DNA from: a virus
Strand: one strand, 5' to 3'
Length of the DNA stretch: 35,560 nucleotides
Virus record (IMG/VR): IMGVR_UViG_3300050821_000901
Span: 1-35,560 of that record
The notes under the pieces were generated by a model. The model made no database searches. It was not told the origin of the DNA and worked only from the letters and a program-made list of their open reading frames with translations. The translations under genes were made by a program, and so were the position numbers. Numbering within the stretch: position 1 is the first letter of the stretch; every line of letters begins with the position of its first letter. Shown here in pieces: positions 6,310 through 20,795 of the stretch.

Positions 6310-7164
6310 GTGGCTCCCGTCGTCGACAACGTCGTCCCTAAGAACTTTCCGGCGGGGACGACGGTACGCTACACGCGGACGCTAGACGAGTTTCAGCCGT
6401 CGGATGGATGGGCGTACACGATCTATCTGAACGGTCTGACACAAAAGTTCAACAAAGCGGCGCTCGTCGTCGACGGCATTTTTCAGATCCAGTTCGATCC
6501 CTCCGACACTTCCTCTCTCGCTCCCGGTCCCTATCGCTACGCAGAACGGCTCACGAATCCCGGAACGGCGTTCGTTTTGACGGGCGTCACGGTCGACGGC
6601 GAGGGAAACGCGATCTATGCGTTCAGCTCGTTCTCGAATCTTCCTCCGTTCGATGGGATGAAAGTCACGATCACGGGTTTCTCGAACAGCGGGAACAACG
6701 TGGTCGCGGCGATCTCTTCGCTGTCTCTCGACGGCGAGGGAGCGGGATCCTTCGTCGTCGCGAACGGCGCGGCGGTCCCGGAGACGCACGCGGCATCCGG
6801 CGCGGGCGCGGCGGAGACTTTCGACATCACGGGCGACGAGCTTGTGATGAACATCGAACCGAACGTCTCCATCGCGGCGGCGGGCGCGTTCAATTCGTGG
6901 GAGGAACGGACGCTCGCGGTGATCGAAGCGGCGCTCTCCGGTCGGCTGACGGCGGATATTCAGTCGTATCAGATCGCGGGACGCGCGGTCACTAAGATCC
7001 CGGTCGGGGAACTACTACAGATTCGCGGGACGCTGCAAGCGAAGATCTGGCGACAGACGCATCCCGGACAGCTCGGCGTCCCGTATAAAGTCGAGTTCCC
7101 GGTCGAAGGCGACGGTCACGAATATCCTCCGACATGGCAGGACGTGACGGGACTCGGACGATGA
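6310..7164 (+). CDS. Head-tail connector protein: Ig-like domain with inserted module plus W-like C-terminus
   Basis: A 284-aa protein between terminase and portal, the slot of lambda gpW. Residues about 10-85 form an Ig-like head domain (FPAGTTVRYTRTLDEF, SDGWAYTIYL, APGPYRYAERLT). Residues about 95-165 are a separate beta module (GMKVTITGFSNSGNN ... VPETHAASG) that recurs in the tail protein at 24516. Residues about 171-187 (FDITGDELVMNIEPNV) look like the last strands of the first domain, so the module appears inserted in it. Residues about 195-265 resemble gpW: EERTLAVIEAALSGR, AGRAVTKIPVGELL and a GVPYKV end. gpW closes the portal and joins it to the neck. The start is GTG 6310 because no other start lies in frame after the upstream stop; no ribosome binding site is seen. 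Confidence 0.65.
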   Translation: MAPVVDNVVPKNFPAGTTVRYTRTLDEFQPSDGWAYTIYLNGLTQKFNKAALVVDGIFQIQFDPSDTSSLAPGPYRYAERLTNPGTAFVLTGVTVDGEGNAIYAFSSFSNLPPFDGMKVTITGFSNSGNNVVAAISSLSLDGEGAGSFVVANGAAVPETHAASGAGAAETFDITGDELVMNIEPNVSIAAAGAFNSWEERTLAVIEAALSGRLTADIQSYQIAGRAVTKIPVGELLQIRGTLQAKIWRQTHPGQLGVPYKVEFPVEGDGHEYPPTWQDVTGLGR

Positions 7165-8744
7165 ACAAGTCGTTCGCGTCCGAAGTCTTTGATCGCATCG
7201 TTTCGGAGTTCTCCCTCAAGGGCACACGATCCCTCACAGTTTTTCAGGGCGCGATGGGCGGTCGGCTCACGATGGACTGGATCGCGTCGATCCTCTCGGC
7301 GGATCAGGAAATCAAAGGGAACATGCGGCTCCTCCGCGCTCGTGCGCGCGAGCTGTCCCGAAACAATCCCGTCGCGAAGTCCTATCTCAAGCTCCTCGTC
7401 GCGAACGTGCTCGGCGAACTCGGCGTCGGCTATCAGGCTCAGGTCCGCAACAATGACGACACGCTGAACGAGGCGCTCAATAGAAAGATCGAAACGGCGT
7501 GGGGCGAATGGGTGAAGAAAGAGAATTGCACGGTCGAGGGGAAACTCTCGTTCCGGGCAGTTCAGAATCTCGTCCTCAAAAACGTCGCGACGGACGGCGA
7601 AGTGTTCATCCGGCTCGTCCCCGGCTTCACGGGGAATGCGTCCCGATTCGCGATTCAACTCTTCGACGCGGATCAGGTCGATCACTTGTTCTCCCGCTAC
7701 GCTTCGAAATCGGAGAACGAGATCCGCATGGGGATCGAAGTCGACGCGTGGGGAAAGCCGGTCGCGTATTACGTCAACATGAAGCATCCCTCCGATCTCG
7801 GCGGATCGCTCCTCCGCACGCGGATCCCGGCGACGGAGATGCTTCACTTGTACGATCCCGAACGCGTTGCTCAGACGCGCGGGATCACTTGGTTTCATCC
7901 GTGCATGGTCGAGATGAGGATGCTCGGCGGATATGTCGAGGCGGAACTTGTCGCGGCGCGAACGGGCGCGGCGAAAATGGGCTTCCTCAAAAACACGGAC
8001 GCATCGACGTATGAGACTCCGAATCCCGATGCGAAATACAGAATCGACGCGCAGCCGGGCGTGATCGAATCGCTTCCTCCGGGCTTCGATTTTCAGGCAT
8101 GGTCCCCAGATCATCCGGCGGGAGCTTTCCCGGCGTTCATCAAAGCGATGCTCCGTTTCATCGCTTCCTCGCTCGGCGTCTCCTACAACGCGCTCGCGTC
8201 GGACCTCGAGGGCGTGAATTATTCGTCCATGCGTTCGGGACTTCTGATCGAGCGCGATCAATGGCGGATGCTTCAGTCGTTCGTGAAAGAACAAATGCTG
8301 CAGCCGATCTTCGATCAGTGGATCGGGATGGCACTTCTCTCCGGCGCGCTCGTCCTCGATTCTCGCGATCCCGCGAAGTTCAAAGCGGGCAAGTGGGAAG
8401 CGCGCGGCTGGATGTGGGTCGATCCCCTGAAGGACGTTCAAGCGGGGATCCTCGCGATCAACGCCGGGCTGAAGTCCCGGACTCGTCTGATCTCGGACGA
8501 GGGCGGCGACTTCGAGGATGTCGCGGAGGAGCTTGCGCAAGAGGCGAAGATCGCGGACGAGTACGGACTCGACTTCACGGTCACTCAGACGGCGAAGGCT
8601 CCGACGGTGAACAAAGGTCCGAAGGACACGGTCGAGGCTGAAACGGATGACGACGACGCGAATCCGAAGGGCGACGACAAAGAGGAAAAATCGGCCGCAG
8701 CGGGCACGCGGCGGCGACTCATATCGGTCGGAGGAAGAAAATGA
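7161..8744 (+). CDS. Portal protein, lambda gpB family
   Basis: A 527-aa protein starting at the ATG overlapping the previous stop (ATGA). The sequence follows the lambda-type portal pattern: early RLLRARARELSRNNPVAKSYL, then LNRKIETAWGEWVKKENC, the central wing GEVFIRLVP, then LFDADQVDHL, IRMGIEVDAWGKPVAYYV and PATEMLHLYDPERVAQTRGI, and the C-terminal RFIASSLGVSYNALASDLEGVNYSSMRSG. It forms the dodecameric ring through which DNA enters and leaves and to which terminase docks. The last 50 residues are acidic (EAETDDDDANPKGDDKEEK) and probably face the capsid interior or are disordered. It is followed three bases before its stop by the next ATG, whose ribosome binding site lies inside this gene. 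Confidence 0.96.
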   Translation: MNKSFASEVFDRIVSEFSLKGTRSLTVFQGAMGGRLTMDWIASILSADQEIKGNMRLLRARARELSRNNPVAKSYLKLLVANVLGELGVGYQAQVRNNDDTLNEALNRKIETAWGEWVKKENCTVEGKLSFRAVQNLVLKNVATDGEVFIRLVPGFTGNASRFAIQLFDADQVDHLFSRYASKSENEIRMGIEVDAWGKPVAYYVNMKHPSDLGGSLLRTRIPATEMLHLYDPERVAQTRGITWFHPCMVEMRMLGGYVEAELVAARTGAAKMGFLKNTDASTYETPNPDAKYRIDAQPGVIESLPPGFDFQAWSPDHPAGAFPAFIKAMLRFIASSLGVSYNALASDLEGVNYSSMRSGLLIERDQWRMLQSFVKEQMLQPIFDQWIGMALLSGALVLDSRDPAKFKAGKWEARGWMWVDPLKDVQAGILAINAGLKSRTRLISDEGGDFEDVAEELAQEAKIADEYGLDFTVTQTAKAPTVNKGPKDTVEAETDDDDANPKGDDKEEKSAAAGTRRRLISVGGRK

Positions 8745-10891
8745 CGGCAACTCTCAAAACGCGGGAAAAAATCGGCGACTCTCTCCCGATGCTGACGCGC
8801 GAGTTCGAAGTGATCGAGATGACTCCGATCCCGAAACGCGAGAAGAAAGTCCTCACTCCCGAACAGGTCGCGGCGCGCGCGGCGCGGATCGCGGAGCGTA
8901 AGCGCAAGAAAGATGCGGGCGAGGCTCCCGATCCCGACGACGACGCGGACGACGACTCCGGTGAGAACTCGGACGACACGGGAAACGAGGGGAAAGAGGC
9001 TCAGGGAAAACGCGACGAGGATCGATTCGACATCTCGATCTCGTCGGAATATCCGGTCGAGCGATGGTTTGGAAAAGAGATCCTCGATCACTCCCCGGAC
9101 GCGGTCGATCTCTCCCGCGCGAAAAAGGGACTCAGTTTCCTCGATTCGCACGACGCGAAGTCGGTGATCGGGATCGTCGAGAACGCGAAAGTCGGCGATG
9201 ACAAAAAGCTCCGCGGACAGGTCCGTTTTTCTCGCTCAGCTCCGGCTCAGCAAGTCAAAACGGATATTCAGGACGGGATCCGGCGCTTCATCTCCGTCGG
9301 CTACATGGTCAACGAATACACGCTAGAAAAATCCTCGAAAGAGGAAGGCGATACGTTTCGTGCGACGAAATGGACTCCGATGGAGGCGTCGAGCGTCGGA
9401 GTTCCGGCGGATCCGACGGTCGGGCATGAACGCAAGGTCGGCGACAGGCTGTTCCCGGTTTTGGTACGTGGTGCAGTTGCTTCAGAAATAAATCCGGCTT
9501 CCGAGCCGAATTCTAGGGAGGTCAACGTGGAAACAGCAGAACAAGTAAAAAACTCACGGACCGCCGCCGCTGAAATCATTCGGCTCGGCAAGGTCCATGC
9601 GGTTGATTCAGCGATGGTCGAGACAGCGGTCGCGGAAGGGAAATCGGTCGAAGAGTTTTCGCGCATCGTTCTCGAAGAAGTCGCGAAGCGGTCGGCACGT
9701 CCGGGCAATGCTCCTCCGGCGGAGAATCAGGATCGGATCGAGCTGACGGACAAGGAACAGCGTCAGTACAACCTCGCTCGGGGAATTATGACGGCGATCT
9801 CGAACGACGAAGCGTCGAAGTCGGGATCCTCGAAGCGATTCAACTCTTTCGAGACGGAAGTCTCGCAAGAGATCGAGAAGAACTGGCGCGGCGCGCGTCA
9901 CGGCGGACTGTTCGTCCCGTGGAGCTTGCGTCACGCGTGGACTCCCGATCTGACAAAGCGTTTCGGCGAGCACGGCGGCGTGCAAAAACGCGCGGGGCTG
10001 GACTCCGGGACGGCGACGGCGGGGCAAGAGCTGAAGTTCACTGAACCCGGTGAATTCATTCAGTTCCTCTACAATCAGATGCGCGTGAAGGAACTCGGCG
10101 CGCGGACGATTGCGGGACTCCGCGACAACGTCTCCTATCCGAAACAGACGGGCAGGGCAACGGGATCATGGGTCGGGGAAAATCCCGGCTCGGATGTCGC
10201 TGACTCCGCGCTGACGCTCGGATCCATCGCAAGCTCCCCGAAAACGTATCAGTCCTCTTCGAGCTATTCGCGGCAGTTGCTCGCTCAGGCTGTCATCGAT
10301 GTCGACACGCTCGTCCGGGAAGATCTCGCGCGCGATCTCGCGCTCGCGATTGACTCCGTCGCAATCGTCGGCGGCGGATCGAATCAACCGACGGGCATCG
10401 TCCCCACATCCGGGGTCCAGTCCTACGTGATGCTCTCCGATGCTGGCAACGGCGGCGCTCCCGCGTGGGACGACATCGTCAAGATGTCGGAACTCCTCGA
10501 AGATGCGAACGCGGATCAGCTCGGCGGCGGCGCATGGCTGACGACTCCGGGCGTGAAGTCCTCGCTCAAGCGCACGGCGCGCTTGGGGAACACAATCGGA
10601 CTCCCGATCTGGGCGGACGACAGCACGGTCGACGGATACAAGGCGGCGTCCTCGAATCAGGTCACGAAGAACTCGACGAAAGGTTCGAGCGGCGCGACTC
10701 TCCACACTCTGATCCGTGGCATTTTCGAAACGATGGTGATCGGAATGTGGGGATCCGGCTTCGAACTCGTCGTCGATCCCTATCGGCTGAAGAAACAGGG
10801 AATGATCGAACTGACGACGTTCATGCTGACGGACGTTGTCCTGAAGTATCCGGTCGCGTTCGTCGTCGCGAAGTTCGTCGCCACAACGTAA
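8741..10891 (+). CDS. Prohead protease-major capsid protein fusion (HK97 type)
   Basis: A 716-aa polyprotein with ribosome binding site GGAGGAAG (8730-8737). Residues 1-60 are basic, 61-82 a poly-acidic linker. Residues about 95-235 match the HK97 (U35) prohead protease: LSFLDSHDAKSVIG with His137, RRFISVGYMV with Ser185, and WTPMEASSVGVPADP with Glu215, the expected triad. Residues about 263-400 are helical, like a scaffold or delta domain. Residues about 400-716 are an HK97-fold capsid protein: EFIQFLYNQMRVKELGARTI, KQTGRATGSWVGE, LVREDLARDLALAIDSVAIVG, GSNQPTGIV, FELVVDPY. The protease would free the capsid subunit and be lost. A strong ribosome binding site and in-frame GTG at 9527 allow separate capsid synthesis. 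No stop or frameshift breaks the fusion. Confidence 0.9.
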   Translation: MTATLKTREKIGDSLPMLTREFEVIEMTPIPKREKKVLTPEQVAARAARIAERKRKKDAGEAPDPDDDADDDSGENSDDTGNEGKEAQGKRDEDRFDISISSEYPVERWFGKEILDHSPDAVDLSRAKKGLSFLDSHDAKSVIGIVENAKVGDDKKLRGQVRFSRSAPAQQVKTDIQDGIRRFISVGYMVNEYTLEKSSKEEGDTFRATKWTPMEASSVGVPADPTVGHERKVGDRLFPVLVRGAVASEINPASEPNSREVNVETAEQVKNSRTAAAEIIRLGKVHAVDSAMVETAVAEGKSVEEFSRIVLEEVAKRSARPGNAPPAENQDRIELTDKEQRQYNLARGIMTAISNDEASKSGSSKRFNSFETEVSQEIEKNWRGARHGGLFVPWSLRHAWTPDLTKRFGEHGGVQKRAGLDSGTATAGQELKFTEPGEFIQFLYNQMRVKELGARTIAGLRDNVSYPKQTGRATGSWVGENPGSDVADSALTLGSIASSPKTYQSSSSYSRQLLAQAVIDVDTLVREDLARDLALAIDSVAIVGGGSNQPTGIVPTSGVQSYVMLSDAGNGGAPAWDDIVKMSELLEDANADQLGGGAWLTTPGVKSSLKRTARLGNTIGLPIWADDSTVDGYKAASSNQVTKNSTKGSSGATLHTLIRGIFETMVIGMWGSGFELVVDPYRLKKQGMIELTTFMLTDVVLKYPVAFVVAKFVATT
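9513..9529 (+). promoter_or_regulatory. Internal ribosome binding site and in-frame GTG start for capsid protein
   Basis: CTAGGGAGG (9513-9521), then TCAAC, then GTG (9527-9529), in frame with the fusion at codon 263. Spacing of five bases is ideal. It lies exactly between the protease domain and the scaffold/capsid part. Confidence 0.75.
9527..10891 (+). CDS. Major capsid protein with N-terminal scaffold domain (predicted internal-start product)
   Basis: Initiation at the internal GTG gives a 454-aa protein that starts VETAEQVKNSRTAAAEI and contains only the helical scaffold-like segment (about 130 residues) and the HK97-fold capsid domain. This size and layout match the stand-alone HK97 capsid precursor (delta domain plus capsid). 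Capsid is needed in hundreds of copies and protease in few, so a second start would solve the stoichiometry problem that a simple fusion creates. This is analogous in principle to lambda C/Nu3, where an internal start yields the scaffold. The product is predicted from sequence only. Confidence 0.6.
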   Translation: METAEQVKNSRTAAAEIIRLGKVHAVDSAMVETAVAEGKSVEEFSRIVLEEVAKRSARPGNAPPAENQDRIELTDKEQRQYNLARGIMTAISNDEASKSGSSKRFNSFETEVSQEIEKNWRGARHGGLFVPWSLRHAWTPDLTKRFGEHGGVQKRAGLDSGTATAGQELKFTEPGEFIQFLYNQMRVKELGARTIAGLRDNVSYPKQTGRATGSWVGENPGSDVADSALTLGSIASSPKTYQSSSSYSRQLLAQAVIDVDTLVREDLARDLALAIDSVAIVGGGSNQPTGIVPTSGVQSYVMLSDAGNGGAPAWDDIVKMSELLEDANADQLGGGAWLTTPGVKSSLKRTARLGNTIGLPIWADDSTVDGYKAASSNQVTKNSTKGSSGATLHTLIRGIFETMVIGMWGSGFELVVDPYRLKKQGMIELTTFMLTDVVLKYPVAFVVAKFVATT

Positions 10892-10930: not shown

Positions 10931-10963
10931 CGACGGGGACGGGAGAGATCCCGTCCCTTGTCG
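10931..10963 (+). terminator. Stable hairpin after the capsid gene
   Basis: A 9-bp perfect stem GGGACGGGA (10936-10944) with TCCCGTCCC (10949-10957), loop GAGA, flanked by CGAC (10931-10934) and GTCG (10960-10963) which extend the pairing. It lacks a T tract. It may be a weak terminator or a 3'-end stabiliser that keeps capsid mRNA abundant relative to downstream tail genes. Confidence 0.5.
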
Positions 10964-10982: not shown

Positions 10983-11243
10983 ATGTCAGACGCAACTGCA
11001 AAGACTCATAAGGGTGTCCGGCTCACGCGTTCAATCGTTCTCAACGGGGAACACGCGGAAAAGGGGTCGGAGCACGAAGTTCCGAACGCGCTCGCTCAGC
11101 GACTCGTCGGCGAAGGTTCGGCGGAGCACGTCGATCCGCAAGACGCTCCGACATCCGTGAATAGGATGGCGGCTCCCGATAACGCGGATCCCGTCACGAA
11201 GCAAGTCGCTCCGGCGGCTCCGAAGGTAAAGCACGGGAAATAG
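10983..11243 (+). CDS. Small head-region protein (post-capsid)
   Basis: An 86-aa protein with GAGGG about eight bases before the ATG. The pattern GVRLTRSIVLNGEHAEKGSEHEVPNALAQRLVGEGSAEHV (read in two parts: GVRLTRSIVLNGEHAEKG, then EVPNALAQRLVGEGSAEHV) matches small single-domain phage proteins that carry a short beta hairpin followed by a helix ending GxAE and lie between capsid and head-tail genes. The last 35 residues are Pro/Ala-rich and probably disordered. Role unknown; a head-completion helper is likely by position. The next ATG follows its stop directly. Confidence 0.65.
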   Translation: MSDATAKTHKGVRLTRSIVLNGEHAEKGSEHEVPNALAQRLVGEGSAEHVDPQDAPTSVNRMAAPDNADPVTKQVAPAAPKVKHGK

Positions 11244-14136: not shown

Positions 14137-16860
14137 ATGGCTGACGCTCCCGAAATCAAAGTCAAACTGACGGCGGAGGACACGGGCGTCTCGGCGGCGA
14201 TTAAGGAACTCGGCGCTCAGCTCAAAACTCTGAAGAAAAGTCAGGACGAGACGGCGGCGTCGGCGTTCAACCTGGCCGGGGCGTTCAAGGCTATCGTCGC
14301 GGGGGCGGCGGGACTCGGATTCCTCCGCATCGGACAAGAGGCGTTCCAGTCCGCGACGAACATCGGGAAGCTCTCTGACAAGACGGGCATCTCGACTCAG
14401 ACGCTCAGCGTTTTCAATAAGGTCGCGGAGAATGTCGGAGCGTCAACGGAGTCCGTCGACAAGTCCCTCATCAAAGCAGCGAAATCGATCACGGAATTCC
14501 AGCAAGGCAGCACGAAAGCGGCCGGCGGGTTCAAACTCCTCAATCTCACGGCTCAGGACTTCGCGGGACTCAACGCGGATCAGAAACTTCAGCTCGTCGT
14601 CGCGAAGCTCGGCGCGATGGAAAAGGGCTTCCAGAAAGCGACGGCGACATCACAGATCTTCGGGAAGGGCGCGAGCGATCTCACGCTCGTCGCGAACTCT
14701 CTCGCGGCTCAGGGATTCGACAAAGCGACGGAGTCGACGGCGAAGCTCGGACTCTTGCTCGATCAGACGACGACGGACGACTTCCGCGCGGCGGCGGCGT
14801 CCATGCAAGAACTTCAGGACGTGGGGAAAGGGATCGCGACTCAGTTCGAAGCAGGGATGCTCCCGGCGATCTCCGATGTCGGCGAGGCGCTCGTCGATTC
14901 GATGACGCAAGGCGGCGTGTCTTTCAAAACGCTCGGACAATACGCGGGGGATGTCATCCGCTCAATCGCGCTCGTGTTTATCGGATTCGGACAGACGGTC
15001 GGGACTGTCATCGAATCGATCTATGACGCGTTTTCTCAGCTCTGGAAAGAGATCAAAAACGAGGGGACGACGACCTTCAGGGCGCTCGGCGACGCTGTTC
15101 ACGGGAATTTCACGCAGGCAGTCAACGAGATGCTCGCTGGACAGAAGCGCTCGGCGGAGAACATCTCCGAAACGATCCAGCGTCAGAAGGCGATCTACGG
15201 CGCGCTCGCGGACTCGTTCAAGTCCGACTACAACAATCTGTTCCCATCGGCGGAGGAAGAGGAAAAACGGAGGAAAGCGCGGATCGCGAAGCTCCGTCCC
15301 GACAAACAGGTCGAGGCTCCTGAACCGGGACCGCCACCGGCACCGAATGACGCGGCGGCGAAGGCGCGGCTCGCGCTCTTAGAGAAACAGGTTCAGGACG
15401 AACTCGAACTCCATCGCGCTCAGGCGGCGCAGCAAGCGGAGATCGACAAAGAGCTGTACGACAAGGGCGAGATCACGCTGAAGGAATACTACGCGCGGCG
15501 TCGCGCGGAGATCACGGCGGCGTCGGCGGAAGAGACGGCGATCCTTCAGCGAGGACTCGCGGCGGCTCAGGAAGAAGTCGCGCGCACAACGGCGGCGGCG
15601 AGCGCGGAGGGTCAGTCTCCGAAGGAAAAGGACAGGAGCGAAGCGGCGCGGCTGAATTCGCTCGCGAAAGTCGACGAGCTTCAGACGAAGATCGCGACGA
15701 CGCAACTGAAGGCGACGACGGATCAGAAGAAACTCGACGACGAGGAGTTCAAGGCGAAGCAAACGAATAACGCGGCGCTCCTCGAATTCGAGAAAGAGAT
15801 CGACACGTCGGCGGCGAAACGGAAGGAAGCGGCGGCGGCGGAGATCGAGCTTGAGAAGCAAAAACTCTCCGTGATCCTCGCGCAATCCGGCGCGTCGAAG
15901 GAACAGATCGCGGCGGAGCTTCAGCGATTCGCGACGGCGAAGGCGAACGCGGCGGCGTTCGCGGACGAGCAGGCGGCGGGACAGGCGGCGCTCAAGGAAC
16001 TCGCGGACGAGAAGGCGGCGGTCGAACAGAAAGTTCAGTCCGGTCAACTCTTCTCGATTCAGGGACAGGAACAGATCCGTCAGATCGAGGCGGCGCGGCT
16101 CCCGGTCCTTCAGCAGATCGCGGCGGCGATGCTCGAACAGGCGAAGGCGACGGGAGACGAGTCGAAGATCGCTCAGGCGGAGGACTTCTCGAAACAGGTC
16201 GCGGCGATTCAGGTTCAAGCGAATCTCGCAGGACAGCAAGTCGCTCAGCTCAAACAGGGCCTCGAGTCCTCGCTCGTCGGCGGCTTCACTCAATTTTTCG
16301 ACACGGTTGGACGCGGGACGGAGTCCGTCGCTCAGTCGTTTAAGAATCTCGCGGGATCGATCATCGGATCGCTCGCGAAGATGACGGCTCAGATGCTCGC
16401 TCAGATCGTCGTCGCGAAGCTCCTCAAATTGGCTCTCGGCGGGACAGGATTCTCCGGCGGCGGGGCGGTCCCGGCGGGACAGGGACTCGCGGACGGCGGA
16501 CTCATTAAGGGCCCGGGCGGTCCGAAGGCGGACGCGATCCCGGCGCGGCTCTCGGCGGGCGAGTTCGTCGTGAAGGCGGACGCGGTCGCTTCGTTCGGCG
16601 CGCACAATCTCGAAGCGATCAACCGCGGATTGAAAGTCCCGTCGTTCGAGAATCTCGCGCTCCCGAAGTTCGCGGACGGCGGACTCGTGGGACAGGCGAC
16701 GGGCGCGGGAAGTAGCGGGAGCATCAATCTCGGGATCGGACTCGACGAGGGGCTGATCCTGAAGCATCTCTCCTCGAAGCAAGCGGGACGCATCGTCCTC
16801 GATCACATCACGAGCAATCCGAAAGCGGCGTCGAAGGCGCTCGGAAGGAGTCAAGGGTGA
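14137..16860 (+). CDS. Tail tape measure protein
   Basis: A 907-aa protein, the longest gene here, starting one codon after the GT frame ends. It begins IKVKLTAEDTGVSAAIKELGAQL, a typical tape-measure start. Hydrophobic segments lie near residues 48-66 (FKAIVAGAAGLGFLRIG) and 270-290 (RSIALVFIGFGQTVG). Residues about 380-720 are long coiled coils rich in Ala, Glu, Gln and Lys. The C-terminus has the usual Gly-rich phrases ADGGLIKGPGG, DAIPARLSAGEFVVKADAV and FADGGLVG. It fixes tail length and is ejected with DNA; 907 residues at the usual 1.5 angstrom per residue predicts a tail of roughly 130 nm (inference). It overlaps the next gene by GTGA. Confidence 0.95.
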   Translation: MADAPEIKVKLTAEDTGVSAAIKELGAQLKTLKKSQDETAASAFNLAGAFKAIVAGAAGLGFLRIGQEAFQSATNIGKLSDKTGISTQTLSVFNKVAENVGASTESVDKSLIKAAKSITEFQQGSTKAAGGFKLLNLTAQDFAGLNADQKLQLVVAKLGAMEKGFQKATATSQIFGKGASDLTLVANSLAAQGFDKATESTAKLGLLLDQTTTDDFRAAAASMQELQDVGKGIATQFEAGMLPAISDVGEALVDSMTQGGVSFKTLGQYAGDVIRSIALVFIGFGQTVGTVIESIYDAFSQLWKEIKNEGTTTFRALGDAVHGNFTQAVNEMLAGQKRSAENISETIQRQKAIYGALADSFKSDYNNLFPSAEEEEKRRKARIAKLRPDKQVEAPEPGPPPAPNDAAAKARLALLEKQVQDELELHRAQAAQQAEIDKELYDKGEITLKEYYARRRAEITAASAEETAILQRGLAAAQEEVARTTAAASAEGQSPKEKDRSEAARLNSLAKVDELQTKIATTQLKATTDQKKLDDEEFKAKQTNNAALLEFEKEIDTSAAKRKEAAAAEIELEKQKLSVILAQSGASKEQIAAELQRFATAKANAAAFADEQAAGQAALKELADEKAAVEQKVQSGQLFSIQGQEQIRQIEAARLPVLQQIAAAMLEQAKATGDESKIAQAEDFSKQVAAIQVQANLAGQQVAQLKQGLESSLVGGFTQFFDTVGRGTESVAQSFKNLAGSIIGSLAKMTAQMLAQIVVAKLLKLALGGTGFSGGGAVPAGQGLADGGLIKGPGGPKADAIPARLSAGEFVVKADAVASFGAHNLEAINRGLKVPSFENLALPKFADGGLVGQATGAGSSGSINLGIGLDEGLILKHLSSKQAGRIVLDHITSNPKAASKALGRSQG

Positions 16861-18056
16861 GCGTTCAAACTGGATCGGCTACGGACTACGCGGATCTCCT
16901 CAATCAGCTCGACACGTTTCTGACCAGTACGGGGATGGCGCTGACTCCCTCGTTCGTCGGCGTCGGCAACGGAACGATCTCCGCTCTCGGCGGATCCGCA
17001 TCCGTCGCGGAGACGATCACGGTCACTTTCACGTCCGCGACGGCGTTCGGCGTCGTCGGCTCCGTCTCGGGATCCCTCGGAACTGGCGTCGTCGGGACTC
17101 CGTTCACTTCGACAAAAACGAACTTCACGATCACGGCGGGCGGGACGGCGTTCGTCGCGACGGACGCGTTCACGTTCGCGGTCGCTCCTCCGTGGACTTC
17201 GAAACGGCGCACGAGCGGATCGGAGATGATCTGGCAGGCGAACGGAAACGGCGGACTCGACGCGATCCTCGTCGGCGCGAAGATCTTCTCGAACGTCACG
17301 GGCGACTATTACAATTGGCGGCTCGGCGGGTTTCAGGCGTTCGACTCCTCGCTCCTGTTCACTCAACAATCGGGCTACGTCGGCGGCATGGGCAATCCTC
17401 AGACGAAATGCTCTCCGATCCTTCCTCTCTGGAACTCGACGATCCCCTATTGGTTCATCGCGAACGGGAGACGTGTGATCGTCATCGCGAAAGTTTCGAC
17501 GGTCTACGCGGTCGCTTATCTCGGACTGATCTCTTCGTACATGGCTCCCGGCTCGTATCCGCTCCCTCTTTGCGTCGGCGGGTCGCTCGCGTTTCAGGGC
17601 GGCGGCGGCATTTTCGCGAGCGAACCTGCAGCCACGTCGACGAATTTCAGATGGAGCTATTCGGGAACGGAGATGCGCGCGTTCCCGATCTGCAATCCGT
17701 CGGCGATGTCGAATGACGCGGACTCCGTGTTGCGGCTTTTGCTCCCGACGGGGGTGTGGCGCGGATTCGACAACTCGGCGGCGGAGTCGGCGTTTGGAAA
17801 AGTGTGGCCGTACTCGGGACTCACGGCGGCGGCGTGGGACTGGCGTCCGAATCTCGACGGAGGCTATCCGCTCCTCCCCATCGTCCTTCACGACAACATC
17901 CCGAACGTGTACGGCGAACTCGAAGGCATCCGCGCGATCACTGGATTCTCGCAAGGCGCGGAGAACTTGATCGTCGTGAACGGGATCACATATCTCGTGA
18001 TGCAGAACGTTTTCCGAAACACAAAGTCCGACTTTTTTGCGGTCCGACTCACGTAG
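16857..18056 (+). CDS. Tail protein with GVGNGTI beta module (paralogue A)
   Basis: A 399-aa protein starting at the GTG overlapping the tape measure stop. It starts MSVQTGSATDYADLLNQLDTF, the same kind of start as the next gene (MSYQNGSATSTTDLLQQL), so the two are paralogues. Residues about 33-112 hold a beta module (FVGVGNGTISALGG, FGVVGSVSGSLGTG, NFTITAGGTAFVATDAF) that recurs inside the tail-tip protein at 21621. The rest is a beta-rich domain with many aromatic residues ending FFAVRLT. Position after the tape measure suggests a distal tail or side-fibre component. No enzyme motif is seen. Confidence 0.65.
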   Translation: MSVQTGSATDYADLLNQLDTFLTSTGMALTPSFVGVGNGTISALGGSASVAETITVTFTSATAFGVVGSVSGSLGTGVVGTPFTSTKTNFTITAGGTAFVATDAFTFAVAPPWTSKRRTSGSEMIWQANGNGGLDAILVGAKIFSNVTGDYYNWRLGGFQAFDSSLLFTQQSGYVGGMGNPQTKCSPILPLWNSTIPYWFIANGRRVIVIAKVSTVYAVAYLGLISSYMAPGSYPLPLCVGGSLAFQGGGGIFASEPAATSTNFRWSYSGTEMRAFPICNPSAMSNDADSVLRLLLPTGVWRGFDNSAAESAFGKVWPYSGLTAAAWDWRPNLDGGYPLLPIVLHDNIPNVYGELEGIRAITGFSQGAENLIVVNGITYLVMQNVFRNTKSDFFAVRLT

Positions 18057-18065
18057 AGAGGCGCT

Positions 18066-19070
18066 ATGAGCTATCAGAACGGAAGCGCGACGAGCACGAC
18101 GGACTTGCTTCAGCAGCTCGTCACGTTCCTCGTCGCGGCGGGATGGACTCTGGACATGAGCCAGATCGAGGGGACTGGCTGGCGCGCGCATCTTCACAAG
18201 TCGGGAAACTATGTGCATCTCCGCGCGGCGGAAGCGGAGGCGGTTTTTACGCAGCACACATCCGGGGTCGGCTACTCTCTCAATCTCTATACGGGGATCG
18301 GTTTCAATTCCGGGCAGCCGTGGAACAATCAGGGGAGCGGCGCTCCGGTCGGATTTTTGGGATTCAATCCAATCGGCGTGGCGGCGGTCACGAGCGCGGG
18401 TCCGTTCACGAACTACTATTTTATGACGGACAGCTCGGCGGACAACGTCGTCGTCATCATTGAAAAAACTCCCGGACTCTTCGTGCATGTCGGATGGGGA
18501 CTCTCCCTGAATCTGGCGGGATCCATCACGGGCGGCGCTTACTTCTTTGGATCTTCGGGCGGCAATCACGCGAACACAACGATAGGGGGCGTTCCGGCGA
18601 ACACTCCCGGATACACGTCGACGGCGCTCTGTCCGGGTGTGATGGCGGATTCGTTCGGACAGGACGACGTTTGTTTCGTCCGGGCGGACGTGGATGCGTT
18701 CACGGGGAATTGGATCGGCATAGGCGCGAACGTAACGGCGGCGACGGGCTACACGGGGAAAGTCGGCGCTTCCTCCGTGAAGGGGAAGAACATCAATCCG
18801 GCGGCTTCGATCCCCATGTACGCGCAATCGGACGGCGTGACGGAGTTTCAGGCGCTTCAGACTTCCGCGCTCGACGGGCGAGCGAATCTCCTCCCGGTTT
18901 ATCTGTGGGCGAATCGCGACGGAACTTCGACGGGTTATTCGCTTCTCGGCTCGCTCCCGATTGTGTTCGCTGCGAACGGCGTCGGGAACGGTTTCTCGAA
19001 CGCGAGCGAGTACACAATCGGCTCCGACACTTACAAGATGTTCCCGAATTTTGCGGTCCTCAAGGTCTAA
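18066..19070 (+). CDS. Tail protein (paralogue B)
   Basis: A 334-aa protein with AGAGAGG before the ATG. The N-terminal 25 residues match the previous gene in pattern, and the C-terminus (YTIGSDTYKMFPNFAVLKV) matches its end (GITYLVMQNVF, then FFAVRL). It lacks the GVGNGTI module, so the two genes probably share a core fold and differ by module insertion. The body is Gly/Ser/Thr-rich and beta-rich, as expected of a virion surface protein. It lies between the tape measure and the BR0599-type protein. Likely a distal tail or fibre subunit; the exact role is unknown. Confidence 0.65.
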   Translation: MSYQNGSATSTTDLLQQLVTFLVAAGWTLDMSQIEGTGWRAHLHKSGNYVHLRAAEAEAVFTQHTSGVGYSLNLYTGIGFNSGQPWNNQGSGAPVGFLGFNPIGVAAVTSAGPFTNYYFMTDSSADNVVVIIEKTPGLFVHVGWGLSLNLAGSITGGAYFFGSSGGNHANTTIGGVPANTPGYTSTALCPGVMADSFGQDDVCFVRADVDAFTGNWIGIGANVTAATGYTGKVGASSVKGKNINPAASIPMYAQSDGVTEFQALQTSALDGRANLLPVYLWANRDGTSTGYSLLGSLPIVFAANGVGNGFSNASEYTIGSDTYKMFPNFAVLKV

Positions 19071-19073
19071 CGG

Positions 19074-20795
19074 ATGACGACTTTCGCGGGAGAGTTTTTG
19101 CAGCTCGGACCGGGTCGGCTGACGCCGAAGAACCTTTCGTCGGACGTGACGGGAGCGACGGCGATCACGTCGCTGTCGGCGTCGCTCTCCTCGGCGTCCA
19201 AGAATGCATCGCGGGGAACTCCGCAACCGGCGATATCGATCTCCGCTCCCGCTCCGAACATCGGGCAGATCGAGGAAGCGTTCGGCGGGCGTCTTTTTTA
19301 TCGGATCATCACGGTCCCGACGACGGAGGCGCTTCAGTTTGTTTTGACGGCGACGCAATTCCCGGTCGAAGTCTGGAACACGTTTCAGGACTCCGACGAG
19401 ATCCTCGAAACGATCACGATCACGGGGTCCGGCGGACTTACGCTCTCGGATCCTTTCGGCGAGCCGCTCCTGTTCGCGGCTCAGGGATCGCGGATCTATC
19501 AAGCGCTCGTCCCTTCCTCCGGTCCGACTCAGATCGATCAGAGCGTGATCTTCGCGTTTCTCTCCGGGATCAATGGGCTGATCCTCGTCACGGGATCCCG
19601 GATCGCGCTGTTCAGCGTGCAACCGGACTGGTCGGAAGGAATCGCGGAGTCGATCTCCTATCTGACGGATGTCCTGAAGGCGTACAGCGACAACGAACAG
19701 CGGCGCGGACTCCGGCAATTTCCCCGGCGCGCGCTCAGGTATCGCGCGCTCGCGCTCAACGCGCGCGACGCGGCGGGAATGGAGTCGCTCGTGTGGGGCT
19801 GGCAGCATGAACCGTACGGCGTCCCGTGGTGGCCGGATGCGACTCCCGTGACGGCGGACACTCCGGCAGGATCCTTCTCGATCCCCTGCAATACGGTCGA
19901 CAGGCAGTTCGCGGCGGGCGGACTGTGCTGCATCTTTTCGAGCGAGTTCGTGTTCGAGGCGCTCACGGTCGAATCCGTCTCCCCGACGGGCGTCACGTTC
20001 ACGTCCCCGACGCAACTCGACTGGAAAGCGAATCCGAGTCAGATTGTGATGCCGGTCTTTCTGGCGCGGCTCGGATCCTCCGTGAACGTGTCGCGCTTCA
20101 GCTCGGAGATCGATCAGATCGATCTCGATTTTATCGGCGAGGCGCTTCAGGCGGCTCCGGCTCCGTCGACGACGCTCACTCAGTACAAAGGCTTCGACGT
20201 TCTCGAAATCGCTCCGAACTGGCGCGATGCTCCGCTCAAGCGGACGTACACGCGCTCCCTCGTGACGGTCGATCCGAAGATCGGTCCGATCACGGTGATC
20301 GACAAGGGCGGCTCGGCGATTGTGAAACAGCCGTTCCCGTGGTTTCTGACGAATCACGCGGCGGTCACTACTTTCCGCGCGTTCTTGCTCCGGCGCTTCG
20401 GACAGCTCAATCCCTTCTGGCTTCCGACGTGGGATCAGGATCTCATCCTCGCGTTCGACGTGGGATCCGGCGACACGGGGATCGTCATCAAATCGGAGTT
20501 TTATTCGCGCTTCTTTTTTCCGAATCCTGCTCGGCGCTTCATCGCGTTCATTCCGACGGACGGCTCCTCGAACGTCTATCGCAAGATCACTTCGACGAAC
20601 GACAACGGCGACGGAACGGAGTCGCTCGTCCTCGACACTCCGACGGGGAAGAACTTCCCGGCGGCGTCGACGATGATCTCGTTCCTCACACTCGCGCGAT
20701 GCGCGTCCGACGACAATCAAATCGAGTGGCTCACGGCGGATCTCGCTGAAGTGAATCTCGAAGTTCAGGAAGTCCCGAGGGAGCTTCCGGCATGA
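19074..20795 (+). CDS. Distal tail or baseplate protein, 573 aa
   Basis: Starts at the ATG just after the previous stop. Residues about 25-65 are a low-complexity linker (ATAITSLSASLSSASKNAS, then TPQPAISISAPAPN). The central and C-terminal parts form a beta-rich tail domain with phrases LRQFPRRALRYRALALNARD, MESLVWGWQHEPYGVPWWPD and FPWFLTNHAAVTTFRAFLLRR, then FWLPTWDQDLILAFDV. The pattern of Trp and Pro and the place before the BR0599 protein match a conserved distal-tail family in siphoviruses with gene-transfer-agent-like tips. It overlaps the next gene (ATGA at 20792-20795). It probably caps the tube and connects to the hub. Confidence 0.7.
   Translation: MTTFAGEFLQLGPGRLTPKNLSSDVTGATAITSLSASLSSASKNASRGTPQPAISISAPAPNIGQIEEAFGGRLFYRIITVPTTEALQFVLTATQFPVEVWNTFQDSDEILETITITGSGGLTLSDPFGEPLLFAAQGSRIYQALVPSSGPTQIDQSVIFAFLSGINGLILVTGSRIALFSVQPDWSEGIAESISYLTDVLKAYSDNEQRRGLRQFPRRALRYRALALNARDAAGMESLVWGWQHEPYGVPWWPDATPVTADTPAGSFSIPCNTVDRQFAAGGLCCIFSSEFVFEALTVESVSPTGVTFTSPTQLDWKANPSQIVMPVFLARLGSSVNVSRFSSEIDQIDLDFIGEALQAAPAPSTTLTQYKGFDVLEIAPNWRDAPLKRTYTRSLVTVDPKIGPITVIDKGGSAIVKQPFPWFLTNHAAVTTFRAFLLRRFGQLNPFWLPTWDQDLILAFDVGSGDTGIVIKSEFYSRFFFPNPARRFIAFIPTDGSSNVYRKITSTNDNGDGTESLVLDTPTGKNFPAASTMISFLTLARCASDDNQIEWLTADLAEVNLEVQEVPRELPA

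Follow-up and report, generated by a model that had tools for sequence, protein, structure and literature searches.

Nested in-frame starts within phage protease genes are already known. In lambda, an internal in-frame start in the protease gene C gives rise to a second protein, Nu3, that has the C-terminal part in common. The tripartite capsid gene of Gifsy-2 combines a ClpP-like protease with scaffold and capsid. In Mu-like phages, a nested in-frame start of the I/Z type has been noted in the protease gene, where the Shine-Dalgarno (SD) sequence and the start codon keep a constant relative position (PMC4378225). HK97 and D3 proheads contain ~60–90 proteases compared to at least 415 shell proteins (PMC12749128). 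A fused protease-capsid gene without a second start would instead supply one protease per subunit, and such genes thus pose a stoichiometry problem, with one protease for every shell protein as opposed to ~1 per 6–7 in phages with split genes.

Fused genes of this kind form a described family, phrog_617, that includes the genes of Vibrio phage VP882, Halomonas phage phiHAP-1, Dinoroseobacter phage R4C, and Jilinvirus. The gene described here resides in a 35,560-nucleotide stretch of viral DNA (IMG/VR record IMGVR_UViG_3300050821_000901), referred to as the window, and like those of phrog_617 it is one gene, homologous to them over ~85% of its length. All 21 isolates examined carry an in-frame ATG in the same linker as the window. 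In the annotated phrog_617 records compared, the gene is a single CDS with the second start unannotated, and the SD is weaker than that of the window.

A conserved in-frame SD and start lie inside the protease gene of the window, an arrangement shared with lambda C/Nu3 and Mu I/Z. Those two systems make a scaffold in its own right as their short product, whereas the short product predicted here, and the part of the arrangement that would be new, is the shell protein with its scaffold attached; the short frame contains no free scaffold and runs through the capsid domain to 10891. This predicted 454-aa product matches the layout of gp5 in HK97/D3 (scaffold, then shell), although HK97 and D3 use two separate genes and the window one gene with two predicted starts. 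Gifsy-2 resembles the window in having protease, scaffold, and capsid in a single gene and differs in protease family. A literature search, with most subscription journals outside its coverage, turned up no publication describing an internal start for the capsid of fused protease-capsid genes, and the protease goes unmentioned in the paper on the R4C structure.

Layout of the fused gene

The first-pass annotation of this DNA had described a 716-codon protease-capsid frame in which an in-frame GTG at 9527 would open a separate 454-aa scaffold-capsid, and ORF and domain analysis confirmed this arrangement. The 716-aa frame (8741–10891, + strand) joins an S78-type prohead protease through a linker to an HK97-type scaffold and capsid, with no stop codon between protease and capsid to interrupt it. 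The portal gene (7134–8744) ends in a stop codon that overlaps the ATG at 8741, and the SD of the full-length product (GGAGG, 8730–8734, + strand) is predicted to pair with the 16S tail at −9.5 kcal/mol. In Pfam, Peptidase_S78 matches residues 120–225 (9098–9415, + strand) and Phage_capsid (PF05065) matches residues 446–712, and the PHROGs match to phrog_617 (“major head protein”, E 6.8e-99) covers residues 92–712. The residues His137, Ser185, and Glu215, which the first-pass annotation had assigned as the catalytic triad, are unchanged in 42/42 aligned relatives.

The predicted second product (9527–10891, + strand; 454 aa) would consist of a scaffold at about residues 263–425 and a mature shell at about residues 426–716, the extent of the latter being taken from an alignment with the R4C shell chain of 268 residues. 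A structure prediction of low confidence (pLDDT 48.7) gives helices from residue 266 on and an unstructured linker. Two further features of the window lie outside this gene. A strong hairpin (GACGGGA-GAGA-TCCCGTC, window 10937–10960) follows the capsid gene, ahead of the neighbouring gene at 10983. On the minus strand at 16851–20720, forward genes are opposed by antisense open frames of great length (up to 1289 aa), a common outcome of codon bias where genes are G+C-rich.

A probable internal ribosome binding site and start

The internal SD, AGGGAGGT (9515–9522, + strand), ends 4 nt before GTG codon 263 (9527–9529, + strand), which is in frame. With a predicted duplex of −12.6 kcal/mol, it is the strongest SD among the 27 starts scored in the window, and none of 500 synonymous re-codings of the junction reached its strength. 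The canonical anti-SD is present in a Terriglobia metagenome-assembled genome (MAG) that carries a relative.

In order to follow the junction across relatives, a close clade of 49 sequences spanning it was collected from viral contig scans (48–100% identity, 44 clusters below 90% identity), together with wider sets of 79 VP882-related and 78 R4C-related viral contigs that overlap slightly. The internal start codon is GTG or ATG in 49/49 close relatives, and an in-frame start with an SD duplex of −7 kcal/mol or better is found at the junction column in 46 of the 49, compared to 8/49 at the next internal column and 34/49 at the gene’s own start. When the linker is left out of the tree, GTG and ATG are seen to have swapped five times or more, with the corresponding V/M exchange. 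The spacing shifts among relatives, two of them (L009 and L041) have indels, and the SD of L041 is read in another phase (TCT ACA GGA GGT CCA GTC ATG). In five others (L048, L052, L053, L059, and L068) the peptide is wholly different, and the SD and ATG/GTG are retained.

The same pattern extends to the wider sets. An SD motif accompanies 79% of linker start codons in the close set versus 8% of other in-frame ATG/GTG codons; the corresponding values are 70% versus 5% elsewhere in the 79 VP882-related contigs (14-fold), 39% versus 8% in the 78 R4C-related contigs (5-fold), and 52% versus 6% in the 21 isolates. An in-frame linker ATG is present in 156/157 sequences over the two wider sets, a weaker signal by itself, as the excess over expectation is moderate (78/79 observed versus 60 expected, and 78/78 versus 54). 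Fused relatives without a ribosome binding site, which the first-pass annotation had named as refuting its reading, were found in part, but these retain the linker ATG in frame: no SD is recognisable in the cyanophages S-LBS1, S-CBS1, and S-CBS3 or in about half of the R4C-related contigs. Synonymous p-values for the SD in single sequences are modest (median 0.078) because the peptide K-E-V largely forces the SD in many relatives, and the case for the internal start rests on the whole set. Taken over that set, these sequence comparisons show selection acting on the nucleotide sequence of the junction and not only on the peptide.

With this strong comparative evidence in support of the internal ribosome binding site and start first proposed from the window, we consider it very probable that the gene is translated from two in-frame starts on one mRNA region. 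The ATG at 8741 would give the protease-scaffold-capsid as the minor form, and the GTG at 9527, on its near-perfect SD, would give scaffold-capsid alone as the major form and direct counterpart of HK97 gp5. We infer that a few full-length subunits would co-assemble with the short form via their common scaffold and capsid parts, bringing a low-copy protease into the prohead, where it would then cut off the scaffold and protease parts. In R4C, the deposited shell chain (8gta) corresponds to residues 362–629 of the 629-aa fused ORF, and the linker ATG is codon 189; as the chain begins at 362, both protease and scaffold are absent from it. Of 42 relatives, 33 have a stronger SD at the internal start than at the upstream one. 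In the window, opening the internal start is predicted to cost more than opening the upstream one (8.0 versus 5.8 kcal/mol), which offsets part of this SD advantage, so that the product ratio is not firmly predictable.

A conserved second start would be a simple solution to the stoichiometry problem, as one gene could supply much shell protein and little protease. It would also make head assembly in these phages testable, with the internal start providing the shell protein and the full frame delivering the protease. If it is true, the annotation of the major capsid protein would be in error across a widespread phage family, giving it excess length and the wrong N-terminus.

Hairpin, open flanks, and a downstream patch

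Six nucleotides upstream of the internal SD lies a hairpin, CGGCT-TCCG-AGCCG (5 bp with a tetraloop; 9495–9508, + strand), of which the stem is kept and the loop is free to vary. A hairpin of at least 5 bp occurs at this place in 45/49 close-clade sequences versus 5.2 expected by synonymous shuffling, the next-best column of the gene reaching 23/49. The stem has been replaced with its pairs exchanged in four relatives, and compensatory change is seen at all five pairs. The stem codons are silently fixed as CCG, GCT, and CCG in 29/29 sequences, GCT making up only ~15% of Ala codons in this genome, and residues 248–261 are under the strongest synonymous constraint of the gene (z 4.8). The loop varies with the encoded amino acid (TCCG, TCCA, AACG, CTCG, TTCG, ACCG, CCCG, GCAG, and GAAA). 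The case for the hairpin is comparative, the fold energy of the window segment being unremarkable against shuffles (z −0.8 to −0.9). Conservation of the hairpin was not found in phrog_617 outside the close, acidobacterial clade, and Rfam gave no match at the junction. The hairpin-SD element represents a clear case of conserved RNA structure within a bacterial-virus coding sequence.

We examined 80 exact sites of the element pattern in viral contigs. Of these, 37 lie in this capsid gene, every one with a start codon after the SD (37/37); the other 43 are scattered and have a start codon in that position in only 8 cases, so the element was rejected as a general motif. The hairpin was likewise rejected as a general leader feature, since only 4/32 gene starts in the window have one.

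The 5′ side of the hairpin is a rare-codon, A+T-rich linker stretch of low structure (9461–9493, + strand). Codon adaptation over the 30 codons from 9461 is 0.26, compared to a gene median of 0.69 and no value below 0.53 away from the junction, and GTA and ACC are 1% codons in this genome. Unusual codons at about 9470–9560 had been read in the first-pass annotation as the trace of an old gene boundary. They are real, but they are conserved in relatives and instead mark an initiation region that has been maintained open. On either side of the hairpin and SD, GC3 falls to ~0.38–0.40 versus ~0.7–0.78 elsewhere across the 49 sequences, and the energy required to open the SD and start is 7.45 kcal/mol versus 9.69 kcal/mol in recoded versions (p ~1e-10). 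The hairpin and A+T-rich flanks most likely hold the start region open within the G+C-rich coding sequence.

A second patch of synonymous constraint (CGG ACC GCC. GCT GAA .. CGG CTC GGC; 9554–9589, + strand; residues 272–283, z ~2.3–3.2) follows the start codon. Within it, 9578–9588 is the exact reverse complement of the 11 nt at 9501–9511, and the two segments flank the internal SD and start. Added to the two-start reading, this raises the prospect of a two-state RNA switch that regulates capsid output, with the local hairpin leaving the SD free and an 11-bp long-range helix looping around it. The two predicted structures are mutually exclusive, and the 11-nt complementarity is exact in many of the closest relatives. 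The long helix shows no covariation, however: loop variants are unmatched downstream, it is lost in the stem-replaced relatives, and its median predicted probability is 0.01. The long-range helix is thus unproven, and we regard such a switch as unlikely. As a broader and tentative suggestion, which we place somewhat below even, annotation may have missed the internal start of the main shell protein family-wide, and in the acidobacterial clade the hairpin-SD-start element, along with the downstream patch, may set or regulate the ratio of protease to capsid.

It has been proposed that SD-like sequences inside genes slow elongation, and the junction could accordingly be a programmed ribosome pause that aids folding of the protease before the scaffold is synthesized, with no initiation taking place. 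The site does lie exactly at the domain border, in the linker predicted to be unstructured. A pause would have no need of a start codon, yet ATG or GTG is found at start spacing in 46/49 sequences, with swaps between the two, and the flanks are selected for openness. This makes a pause improbable. It is still less probable that PASEPNLKEVTVE is kept as a peptide, for example as a maturation cleavage site, with the SD as a by-product. A similar peptide is present in the closest relatives, and K-E-V largely dictates AAGGAGGT; however, the hairpin loop encodes varying residues (S, N, L, T, P, A, F), whereas the synonymous stem positions are fixed, and the five relatives with a replaced peptide have kept the SD and start. 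Peptide-only conservation is largely refuted by the synonymous tests and the stem-replaced relatives.

Age of the fusion and probable hosts

All of the more than 200 relatives examined across the junction are fused, including isolates at ~30% identity (VP882, phiHAP-1, and R4C), and none of them has a stop codon in the linker. A tblastn search with the window protein matched 81 phage records, 53 of which had at least 80% coverage in one place. Among the full-length matches listed, identity is ~27–34%, and these include VP882, phiHAP-1, Synechococcus S-CBS1, Roseobacter CRP phages, Rhodobacter RcRhea, Jilinvirus, and Xanthomonas FoX phages. As the fusion is found in every relative down to ~30% identity, it is old.

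The first-pass annotation had also proposed a recent fusion by loss of a stop and a search for relatives with split genes. No split was found among the relatives spanning the junction, but Faecalibacterium phage FP_Epona (L095 2995–5131) has the homologous protease in a separate gene, with the capsid gene starting 13 nt after it. There TAGGAGGT begins with the protease stop, and this boundary is the split counterpart of the window junction. Split genes with a boundary at this point do exist, then, but the notion that the ribosome binding site and odd codons are relics of a recent two-gene fusion is refuted by the age of the fusion, a described and universal trait in relatives spanning the junction, and by the constraint on the ribosome binding site, hairpin, and codon dip, leaving it with next to no probability.

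One close relative (L076) is located in a Terriglobia MAG, which makes Acidobacteriota the probable hosts of the close clade, and the window virus likewise probably infects acidobacteria. In another contig (L018 1–360), the capsid frame begins almost at the hairpin and is preceded by unrelated DNA with no protease, at a contig edge; this is possibly a chimeric assembly or a defective copy. In phiHAP-1 (L080 1501–1525), the region homologous to the window protein extends upstream past the capsid CDS start given in the annotation (1525), so the true start probably lies further upstream. Starts in the fused protease-capsid family are annotated inconsistently.
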